A stretch of DNA of 64,000 nucleotides, taken from positions 3,596,001 to 3,660,000 of the forward strand of contig NZ_CP058579.1 of NCBI RefSeq assembly GCF_013402875.1, in the 5' to 3' direction. Position numbers and translations under genes: made by a program. A model generated the notes under the pieces. That model did no database searches. It worked only from the letters and a program-made list of their open reading frames with translations, and was not told the origin of the DNA. Each line of letters begins with the position of its first letter. Positions within the stretch are counted from its first letter, which is position 1. Below, piece after piece: positions 36,224 to 39,183 of the stretch. The stretch comes from Halorarum salinum (lineage in GTDB: Archaea > Halobacteriota > Halobacteria > Halobacteriales > Haloferacaceae).

Positions 36224-36946
36224 GTGACCGAGCAACGCTACCTGGCGGACAGCACGGTCCGGACGTTCGAGGCGAGCGTGGAGCGTACCCTCGAGGACCG
36301 GGTCGTCCTCGACGGCACCCACTTCTACCCGACGGGCGGCGGCCAGCCGAACGACACCGGGAGCCTCTCGTTCGAGGGCGGCGAGGCCGCGGTGGTCGAC
36401 GTCCGGAAGCAGGACACGATCTACCACCGCCTCGACGGCGACGTCCCGGCCGAGGGGGCCACCGTGACGGGCGAACTCGACTGGAACCGGCGGCACGCCC
36501 ACATGCGGTACCACACCGCCCAGCACCTGCTCTCGGCGGTGCTCCTCGACGGGTTCGACGCGCAGACGGTGGGCAACCAGCTGTACGCCGACCGCGCGCG
36601 ACTCGACGCCGACCACCCGAAGTTCTCGGAGACCGACCTCGCGGACGTGGAGGCGCGCATGAACGAACTCGTCGAGGACGGCCTCGCCGTCGACGCGTAC
36701 ACGATGGACCGCGACGTCGCGGAGGCGGAACTCGACGCCGAGCGGACCCGCATCGACCTGCTCCCGTCCTCGATCTCGGAGCTGCGGATCGTCGAGATCG
36801 GCGGCGACGGCCCGGACGACCCCTTCGACCGGACCGCCTGCGCCGGCACCCACGTCGCCGACACCGGGGAGGTGGGCGAGGTGACGGTGACGGGGCGGAC
36901 GACGCAGGGGAGCGACACGGAGCGCGTCGAGTTCACGCTCGGGTAG
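36224..36946 (+). CDS. alaX: Alanyl-tRNA editing protein AlaX
   Basis: 240 residues, stand-alone homologue of the AlaRS editing domain. It hydrolyses mischarged Ser- (or Gly-) tRNA-Ala. A beta-barrel N-terminal part (YPTGGGQPNDTG near 36) leads to the zinc/active-site motifs HTAQHLLSAVL near 98 (HxxxH) and CAGTHVADTGEVG near 205 (CxxxH). Length corresponds to the AlaX-M type. GTG start supported by the TATA spacing. It guards against errors in a cell whose proteins are Ala-rich. Confidence 0.92.
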   Translation: MTEQRYLADSTVRTFEASVERTLEDRVVLDGTHFYPTGGGQPNDTGSLSFEGGEAAVVDVRKQDTIYHRLDGDVPAEGATVTGELDWNRRHAHMRYHTAQHLLSAVLLDGFDAQTVGNQLYADRARLDADHPKFSETDLADVEARMNELVEDGLAVDAYTMDRDVAEAELDAERTRIDLLPSSISELRIVEIGGDGPDDPFDRTACAGTHVADTGEVGEVTVTGRTTQGSDTERVEFTLG

Positions 36947-37050
36947 CCCGGGACGACGGCTTGTTTTCACGCCTGATAGGCGGGGGCGAACCCATATATG
37001 TCGGTTCGGGGAAGCGACGGGTAGCGGCACAGGGAGTGCGGACGAACAGG

Positions 37051-37509
37051 ATGCTCAACCCGAAGGACTACGACCGGACGGAGTTGCGGGCGCTGGCGGG
37101 AGCGACAGCGCCGCCGCGCGACGGCCCCGCGGAGGACCGGTGGGCGACGCCGGACGACTTCCTCGTCGGGGCCGACGCGCGCGTCAGGCAGGGGCAGCTC
37201 GAGGACGCGTTCGTCCTCGCGGCCGCCGGCGACGGCGCGGTCAGGCCCTACCTGACGGGGCTGCCCGACTCCGGGGTCGGCACGCGGCTCGCGCTCGACT
37301 GGCTCCGGTTCCTCGTGACCGTCGGCGGTCGCGAGGGCGCCCGCGAGGCGCTCGCCTACTACGGACGGGTCGACTGGCTGGGCGCCGACGCCGAGGAGGC
37401 GCTCGCGACCCACCTCGAGGCGTTCTCCGGCGGCGAGAGCCGCCCGCTCGGTCCCGGCCACCATCGGACGAGCCTGTTGTTCCTCGCCCGCCTCGCCGCG
37501 CTCCGATAA
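37051..37509 (+). CDS. FlaD/FlaE-domain protein
   Basis: 152 residues. After a short N-terminal stretch (NPKDYDRTELRALA), the region about 70-130 has the archaellum FlaD/E pattern: RPYLTGLPDSGVGTRLALDW then LRFLVTVGGREGAREALAYY and GRVDWLGADAEEAL (W-L-x-F-L and Y-Y-x-x-x-x-W-x core). In motile archaea this domain belongs to the archaellum motor switch complex. No other archaellum genes are near; instead the actin-like gene starts 2 nt after the stop. Start at MLNPKDYD chosen; GTG at 37036 is possible. CATATATG at 36992-36999 is a likely TATA box. Confidence 0.65.
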   Translation: MLNPKDYDRTELRALAGATAPPRDGPAEDRWATPDDFLVGADARVRQGQLEDAFVLAAAGDGAVRPYLTGLPDSGVGTRLALDWLRFLVTVGGREGAREALAYYGRVDWLGADAEEALATHLEAFSGGESRPLGPGHHRTSLLFLARLAALR

Positions 37510-37511
37510 CC

Positions 37512-38576
37512 ATGGCAGCAGAATCCGACGCGAACGACGACGGCATCGAATCGGACGAACCGACCCCGGTCGGCGTGAAGCTCGGCTCCACCCGGACGGT
37601 ACTCACGTACCCCGACGGGAACGGCGGCGTCCACGCCGAGCGCTCGCTCACCTGCCTCGCGACGTACGAGGACGCCATCACCGGCGACGAGAAGGCGCTG
37701 TTCGGCGAGCGCGCCGCCGCGGAGTACCCCGACTGCGTTGAGTACATGCTCCGCTCGGGGCTCCCGGAGGACGACGAGCGCGCGGCGCTCGCGGACCGCT
37801 ACTTCCGCGAACTGCTCTCGGCGAACGGCGTCCCCGAGGAGAGCGCGGTGGTGTACGCCGTCCCGACGATGGAGAACGACGAGGGGCTCGAGAACCTCAC
37901 CGACGTCATCGAGTCCTCGCCGATCGGCGCGGCCGGGATGCGCTCGTACCCCGAGTCGCTCTGCGGGGCCATCCCCGCGCTCGGCGACGGCGTCGAGGCC
38001 GTCGACGAGGTGTTCCTCGCGGTCAACATGGGCTCGACGAACCTGGAGGCATCGGCGTACCGCCGGGGCGACCAGCTCGTCCCGTTCTCGACCGGCTCGG
38101 TCACCGGAAACGACGTGGACCGGCGCATCGTGGCGAACGTCGAGGAGGAGACGCAGGGGAGGGTCCACGTCGACCTCACGACCGCCCGCGAGTACAAGGA
38201 GGAGCACGGCGACTTCGAGTCCTTCGAGCCGTTCTCGGACGTCGTCCAGCAGCCCGGCGGCGGCTCCCACGAGTTCACCATCGAGGACGGCGTCCAGGAC
38301 GCGCTGAACTGGTACCTCGACGCCGCGGTCGACGCAGTGGCCAACGAGTTCCTCCCGGACCTCGCGAACGACTTCATGAAGCCGTACCAGCTCGCGCTCG
38401 CGAACCCCATCGCGCTCACCGGCGGGATGGCCTGCATCCCCGGCATGACCGGGGAGTTCGAGCGTCGCCTCTCGGCCGAACTGGACCGCGAGGTGGCGGT
38501 GGTCTCGCCCGACGAGCCGGACCTCGCGGCCGCCGAGGGCGCCCACCGCATCGCCGAACGGCTCGCCGGCCGCTAG
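37512..38576 (+). CDS. Actin-like ATPase, salactin/volactin type
   Basis: 354 residues with the actin/Hsp70 ATPase outline. Phosphate 1 loop VGVKLGSTRTVLTY near 20-33; VVYAVPTMENDEG near 112; phosphate 2 loop VFLAVNMGSTNLEASAYRRG near 169-188 (MGST in place of DxGGGT); adenosine motif ANPIALTGGMACIPGM near 295-310. It resembles, from memory, the haloarchaeal cytoskeletal actin homologues salactin and volactin, which form dynamic filaments or shape cells. Cotranscribed with a FlaD/E-domain protein (2 nt apart) and a membrane protein (4 nt apart). MreB or Hsp70-like relatives are less likely. Confidence 0.72.
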   Translation: MAAESDANDDGIESDEPTPVGVKLGSTRTVLTYPDGNGGVHAERSLTCLATYEDAITGDEKALFGERAAAEYPDCVEYMLRSGLPEDDERAALADRYFRELLSANGVPEESAVVYAVPTMENDEGLENLTDVIESSPIGAAGMRSYPESLCGAIPALGDGVEAVDEVFLAVNMGSTNLEASAYRRGDQLVPFSTGSVTGNDVDRRIVANVEEETQGRVHVDLTTAREYKEEHGDFESFEPFSDVVQQPGGGSHEFTIEDGVQDALNWYLDAAVDAVANEFLPDLANDFMKPYQLALANPIALTGGMACIPGMTGEFERRLSAELDREVAVVSPDEPDLAAAEGAHRIAERLAGR

Positions 38577-38580
38577 GCCG

Positions 38581-39183
38581 ATGCCCGGGGCAGTCGGGTC
38601 CGGCGACGCGGACCGGGGGCCGGACGCGGACCCGAACCGGGACCGGGAGCTCGCGGCGCTCCTCTACGACGGCGAGTCCGTCGAGGCGGCGGTCCCCGTC
38701 GAGGACGGCCGGCTGGTTCGTACGAGCCACCGGCTGCTGGCGCACACGCCCGAGGGGGACGGTCGAACGCTGGCCGTGGTCCAGCGGCCGAACGTCGAGG
38801 GCGTCACGGTCGCCGCGTCCGGCAGCGGCTGGCTCGTCTCGCCGGCGGTGAAGACGCTGCTGGCCGGCGGCCTGTTGCTCGGCGCGGGCCTGACCGTCCC
38901 CGTGGACGGGTTCGCGGACGCCGCCCCGTCCGGGTCCGGCGCGAACGCCGCCGGGCTCGGCGGGACGATGGCGGTGCTCGCCGGCGTCCTCGAGGCGGTC
39001 GCGCTCGTGGACGAGGCGCTCCGGGTGCTCGGCGCGACCACGCTGCTCGTCGGGGTGGCGCTGCTGGGGCTGTATCTGCGGTCGCGGGAACGGGAGTTCG
39101 TCGTCGCGGTCGCCGGCGGTGACGACCTCCGCGTGCCGGCCGGCACGGGGTCGGAGTCGGACGCCGGACGGATCGAGCCCTGA
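38581..39183 (+). CDS. Membrane protein with N-terminal PH-like domain
   Basis: 200 residues. Residues 20-75 look like a small beta-domain (LLYDGESVEAAVPVEDGRLV, then VRTSHRLLAHTPEG, a bacterial-PH-like pattern), followed by hydrophobic spans at about 88-106, 122-145 and 148-165 and a soluble tail with FVVAVAGGDDLRVP. No enzymatic motif. It starts 4 nt after the actin-like gene and ends that operon, so a membrane anchor or partner for the cytoskeletal protein is possible. Confidence 0.6.
   Translation: MPGAVGSGDADRGPDADPNRDRELAALLYDGESVEAAVPVEDGRLVRTSHRLLAHTPEGDGRTLAVVQRPNVEGVTVAASGSGWLVSPAVKTLLAGGLLLGAGLTVPVDGFADAAPSGSGANAAGLGGTMAVLAGVLEAVALVDEALRVLGATTLLVGVALLGLYLRSREREFVVAVAGGDDLRVPAGTGSESDAGRIEP

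Follow-up and report, generated by a model that had tools for sequence, protein, structure and literature searches.

A recurrent arlD-salactin gene pair in haloarchaea at a locus of Halorarum salinum

A 64,000-nucleotide stretch of the Halorarum salinum genome, here called the window, was analyzed. Within it, three plus-strand genes are separated by intergenic gaps of 2 and 4 nt, an arrangement claimed by the first-pass annotation and borne out by the gene coordinates. The features of the locus are as follows.

36990..37050, + strand: putative promoter region of arlD, with a TATA-like element near CCATATATG and a 5′ leader (alignment with relatives)
37051..37509, + strand: gene 1, ATG to TAA, 152 aa; arlD (flaD), archaellum switch-complex protein (PF04659, alignment, and tree)
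37512..38576, + strand: gene 2, ATG to TAG, 354 aa; salactin, actin-family filament ATPase (PF25229 and NF053533)
38581..39183, + strand: gene 3, ATG to stop, 200 aa; probable membrane protein with a likely split PH-like domain, a lineage-restricted accessory (predicted model and Foldseek)

The three genes are presumably cotranscribed. An alignment with four relatives from two genera shows that a TATA-like stretch is conserved, as is the block AGCGGCA..GGGAGTGCGGACGAAC directly 5′ of the arlD ATG, so the set is probably driven by its own putative promoter. Upstream of arlD, positions 36224-36946 of the window encode an AlaXM-like alanyl-tRNA editing protein (257.7 bits; NCBIfam cut-off, 300).

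Gene 1 matched the Pfam family Arch_fla_DE (PF04659) with 63.5 bits (cut-off, 21). The FlaD/E motif recognized at first pass was thereby confirmed, and the family was upheld when the assignment was challenged by profile search. The same Pfam search returned no second match and no FlaC domain; the ArlCE of a Halobellus-genus relative (L113) matches both PF05377 and PF04659. In an alignment with 37 relatives, gene 1 has an N-terminal NPxxYDxxELR motif and a C-terminal FlaD/E domain. Two FlaD/E genes are present in the whole genome, gene 1 and one about 2.7 Mb away, and the distant gene is arlCE, inside the arlCE to arlJ operon. These archaellum genes lie at about 920-926 kb of contig C1, and the window starts at 3,596 kb. 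The first-pass statement that no further archaellum genes are near thus holds for the H. salinum genome.

Orthology was examined with a tree of 109 FlaD/E rows and 108 columns, in which few columns and long branches led to reliance on the deep split only. A branch with 98/98 support divides 35 rows, including all 25 ArlCE proteins, from 74 rows, which include all 48 salactin-linked proteins and all five archaellum-operon ArlD proteins. The latter were defined by reading the archaellum loci of five family f2 genomes (L093-L096 and L130), where a short FlaD/E gene lies directly 5′ of arlCE. Ten further rows fall on the ArlCE side; they include the second, short FlaD/E gene found in some genomes without salactin. 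The tree and domain content rule out that gene 1 is a fragment of ArlCE or an unrelated, stray FlaD/E-like protein. Gene 1 is the sole ArlD of the genome. Like the ArlD of the switch complex ArlCDE, it has the FlaD/E domain and the N-terminal motif and groups with operon ArlD, but its gene adjoins salactin and lies about 2.7 Mb from the remaining archaellum genes. Searches of PDB sequences with gene 1 and its profile gave nothing usable, and the predicted ArlD model (pLDDT 79) had no PDB match with an E-value under 0.001, so nothing in the model points to actin binding. Beyond salactin, Haloferax-genus genomes have an additional short FlaD/E gene whose branch in the tree is very long (1.48; L081:8010-8456, L079:7583-8035, L080:1243-1695, and L118:16315-16887).

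Gene 2 is a salactin. It matched the Pfam family Salactin (PF25229) with 572 bits (cut-off, 27.1) and the NCBIfam equivalog "salactin" (NF053533) with 563.5 bits (cut-off, 400), both over residues 17-351. The Volactin profile (PF25216) scored 22.7 bits, below its cut-off of 35. The first-pass annotation had outlined an actin-type ATPase like salactin or volactin; the salactin part stands and the volactin part does not. The stretches VGVKLGSTRT, VNMGSTN, and LTGGMACIPG are present and largely invariant among 30 sequences, and we take them to be nucleotide-binding loops. A search of PDB sequences gave chance-level matches only. The salactin of Halobacterium salinarum (Zheng et al. 2023, PMC10746226) belongs to the same family by the curated equivalog model. 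The volactin of Haloferax volcanii is likewise described as a haloarchaeal actin with dynamic filaments (PMC10869688), but it belongs to another family, as its below-cut-off profile score on gene 2 indicates.

Gene 3 had no match in the Pfam profile search. In its AlphaFold model (pLDDT 74), a long helical hairpin (helices 83-168) interrupts a beta-sheet whose strands span 34-80 and 170-186. The helices inserted in the sheet are long and hydrophobic, as judged from the AlphaFold model rather than a dedicated membrane predictor. The best Foldseek matches in the PDB are bacterial PH domains (3hsa and 3dcx), with a best probability of 1.00, a best E-value of 0.008, and modest TM scores. The bPH_3 family was matched by 2 of 11 relatives (best E-value, 0.19). 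From the predicted fold, gene 3 is a probable membrane protein with a split PH-like domain. It adjoins salactin in just 10 of 60 fetched loci (genera g1, g9, g14, g17, g23, and g81) and is for that reason an accessory, perhaps a membrane anchor. The triplet is ruled out as a conserved unit by the same count.

Profiles of ArlD and salactin were applied to 97 haloarchaeal genomes, a non-random set of best-scoring loci and representatives picked per genus. In 78 of them (26 of 31 genera), an ArlD gene precedes salactin on the same strand at a distance of no more than 600 nt. The 97 are the genomes with fetched salactin loci, from 189 salactin-positive genomes in a 391-genome sample of the class. 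The adjacency, which could have been unique to one genome, is thus not so. Where conservation of all three genes across haloarchaea had been raised, it holds for the arlD-salactin pair and fails for gene 3. In a named GTDB set that overlaps with the first, arlD and salactin are adjacent in 75 of the best 80 of 138 loci, which lean towards relatives of the window. These loci represent 19 named genera, including Halorubrum, Haloarcula, Haloferax, Halobellus, Halobaculum, Natronomonas, and Halocatena.

Exceptions comprise all sampled loci of genera g26 and g53 (genes separated), g56, and g66 (a spacing of about 5 kb), both g50 genomes (inverted in G165, separated in the other), and 2 of 3 genomes each in g37 and g44, where the genes are separated. 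One Halocatena-genus locus has a 712-nt spacing. The remaining exceptions are a second salactin copy in G277, a second salactin in G076 with a FlaD/E gene 75 nt downstream, and G380, in which everything is decayed. At G380:C8:772000-777300 (L111 and L082), decay is joint: arlJ has an internal stop, and the FlaD/E gene and salactin are reduced to fragments. The flanks of the pair vary. With one locus taken per genus that has the pair, the next most common neighbor is found in 6 of 24 genera, so the pair is more durable than its surroundings; gene calls at these loci, which also underlie the island orders below, came from a simple caller that misses some genes, such as the ArlD-domain gene in L248, found in L018.

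In eight genomes from outside Halobacteria (three with only 1.5 kb of flank), salactin has no FlaD/E neighbor, and an ancient, pre-haloarchaeal pairing is unsupported. Six of 21 salactin genomes outside the class are without any FlaD/E gene, including G421 and G502 (no PF04659). An older role of salactin therefore cannot depend on ArlD. Other neighbors were seen in these lineages. In G412, a salactin homolog lies directly downstream of PilB3-like T2SSE, T2SSF, and pilin-like genes on the same strand (L242:4018-9885), making this a second lineage that places salactin beside type IV pilus-type machinery. In two genomes, a same-strand gene for a 730-750 aa carboxypeptidase-regulatory/PEGA-domain surface protein precedes salactin (L240:6259-9601 and L241:9175-12567), and this protein is possibly another lineage-specific partner. 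In genus g123, a gene for a PhoU/AbrB-like protein lies directly before salactin (L244:6417-8464, also L238 and L239; Pfam was run on the L244 copy only).

In several relatives, arlD-salactin is inside the archaellum/chemotaxis island. The order in L113 (genus g3, Halobellus) is arlJ-I-H-G, arlCE, and archaellins, followed by DUF7500-cheY-cheC-cheD-arlD-salactin. This order recurs with small differences in L114, L115, L116, and L118, the last two from the Haloferax genus code g6. In genus g19, coordinates place arlD-salactin and arlCE about 10-12 kb apart. For H. volcanii, PMC13286277 names "ArlD/HVO_1202" as a single transcriptional unit whose expression rises together with that of archaellum genes when csmR is deleted. 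From the Haloferax gene order and the salactin match in the H. volcanii control genome, HVO_1202 is very probably salactin.

The distribution of these genes was compared with that of the archaellum. PF04659 is present in 188 of 189 salactin-positive genomes, and the exception, G288, has a sub-cut-off salactin match. G288 and G049, both sub-cut-off for salactin, are counted among the 189 and omitted from the 187 used for the ArlJ/salactin table, in which G380 (broken ArlJ with salactin and FlaD/E fragments) is tallied as positive for ArlJ and salactin. ArlJ is present in 296 of 391 haloarchaeal genomes, and salactin is missing in 117 of those 296. Many archaellated genomes have two FlaD/E genes without salactin. 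Three Halobellus-genus genomes (G219, G289, and G334; code g3) encode an archaellum and arlD at the island position and no salactin. A Halorubrum-genus genome (G311, g2; 93% complete) has an intact ArlJ, an internal stop in its arlD match (G311:C13:109716-110195, L123), and no salactin match, a loss that is tentative at this completeness. Four archaellated genomes (G061, G066, G098, and G108) have a single FlaD/E gene in a long, ArlCE-type frame, with no detectable ArlD and no salactin.

Eight genomes encode salactin without ArlJ: G183, G277, G338, and G361 of the Halocatena genus code g69, G290 and G335 of the Haloplanus genus code g13, G352, and G389, which is 81% complete. ArlI was above cut-off in none of them. 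The idea that salactin needs an archaellum is ruled out by these genomes. All eight keep an ArlD-domain (FlaD/E) gene, with one directly upstream of salactin in each. Among the ArlJ-less genomes that are also salactin-free, a FlaD/E gene is kept in 1 of 87 (G360). Fisher's test on this difference gives 7e-11, and 3e-5 once the positives are collapsed to three lineages, both values uncorrected for kinship. The ArlD-domain protein thus seems to be kept for the sake of salactin or for a function common to both. Except in the two g13 genomes, the ArlD-domain proteins of archaellum-less genomes are more diverged (87-99 bits vs mostly 148-214 bits).

In H. volcanii, ArlD-GFP forms polar foci, and small clusters move, occasionally from pole to pole (PMC6509185). 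A flaD deletion is described there as non-motile and generally without archaella (PMC6509185). ArlD polarity is affected by MinD2 and MinD4 (PMC11588486), and CetZ1 is reported to affect ArlD placement (PMC11621097). In H. salinarum, salactin forms dynamically unstable filaments that grow and shrink out of polar foci (PMC10746226). Its deletion is reported to leave motility unchanged and to cause a DNA-distribution defect in low phosphate, read by the authors as a DNA-segregation defect (PMC10746226). The same paper reports poor synteny for salactin, even within Halobacterium, with DNA replication and repair genes nearby (PMC10746226). Gene 2 instead follows arlD, as salactin does in most genera examined here. 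No published report of the arlD-salactin pairing was found in a literature search that covered few subscription papers.

The identities of the two genes, the orthology of ArlD, gene order, island placement, and retention without an archaellum couple arlD and salactin genomically. Cotranscription, physical contact between ArlD and salactin, the direction of action, and the role of gene 3 are inferred. At about even odds (probability roughly 0.5), arlD and salactin form a conserved haloarchaeal module. The polar ArlD assembly would be the site where salactin filaments dock or start, and the filaments would in turn position ArlD-marked polar machinery or share it between poles and daughter cells. 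This two-way arrangement is the simplest reading when polar ArlD and polar salactin foci are set beside the operon. Expression from one operon would keep ArlD and salactin in step, and gene 3 would be a lineage-specific membrane anchor. A broader version is tentative and, in our judgment, somewhat doubtful: ArlD may be the polar anchor or nucleator of salactin in an actin-based pole-to-pole system that would place and distribute polar machinery, namely archaellum pre-motors and, by way of the same pole, DNA at low ploidy. This system would work even in archaellum-less lineages, and the switch-protein function would be one job of ArlD among others.

MamK and ParM are actins that position organelles or plasmids. 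The arlD-salactin proposal follows the same logic, in which a dynamic actin works with a dedicated partner to place a cargo in the cell. The partner is not homologous, however, and the MamK profile matches gene 2 weakly (26.5 bits; cut-off, 400).

The pair may also reflect co-expression only: salactin and the archaellum would both be required during the motile-rod growth phase, and a place behind arlD would give salactin that timing without contact. Short intergenic gaps and the position of the pair in the archaellum island of relatives fit this explanation, as do the joint rise of the ArlD/HVO_1202 unit and other archaellum genes when a regulator is deleted (PMC13286277) and a salactin deletion described without a motility defect (PMC10746226). 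Pure timing would not preserve an ArlD protein in archaellum-less genomes, however, and the retention of an ArlD-domain gene beside salactin in 8/8 such genomes, against 1/87 without salactin, leaves co-expression alone unlikely. The published deletion also bears on the first-pass suggestion of a link between motility machinery and an actin filament. On the genomic side, this link has stronger support than the sequence alone could give, from the pair in 26 of 31 genera, from island placement, and from survival of the pair after archaellum loss; the absence of a motility defect in that report speaks against it.

The pair has outlasted the archaellum motor genes in Halocatena, in G352, in two genomes of the Haloplanus genus, and in one incomplete genome, which could mean that the ArlD-domain protein is mainly a salactin cofactor (a regulator or adaptor) for chromosome partitioning, with its archaellum role a second job. 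The DNA-distribution defect of the salactin deletion (PMC10746226) agrees with this. We consider this explanation unlikely, as H. volcanii is reported to need ArlD to swim and to make archaella (PMC6509185), and many archaellated genomes have two FlaD/E genes and no salactin. The greater divergence of ArlD-domain proteins without an archaellum (87-99 bits vs mostly 148-214 bits, not including the two g13 proteins) also looks as if constraint were partly gone. Finally, arlD and salactin may have become neighbors once and merely never separated, consistent with pairing seen only within Halobacteria (0/8 genomes outside) and with its loss in several lineages. Such historical linkage is very unlikely given that flanking genes have been exchanged (next most common neighbor in 6 of 24 genera) and that a FlaD/E gene remains after archaellum loss almost only with salactin (p = 3e-5, with the positives as three lineages and kinship on the negative side uncorrected).

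Under the preferred reading of a module of ArlD and salactin, the conserved operon is a concrete candidate pair both for the upkeep and inheritance of the archaellum at the poles and for the polar hold of salactin. The poor synteny described for salactin is worth a second look, with the pair split in the sampled genomes of f2, the presumed Halobacterium family. H. volcanii would be suited to testing the pair if HVO_1202 is salactin, and ArlD-GFP is already an established polar marker in this species.
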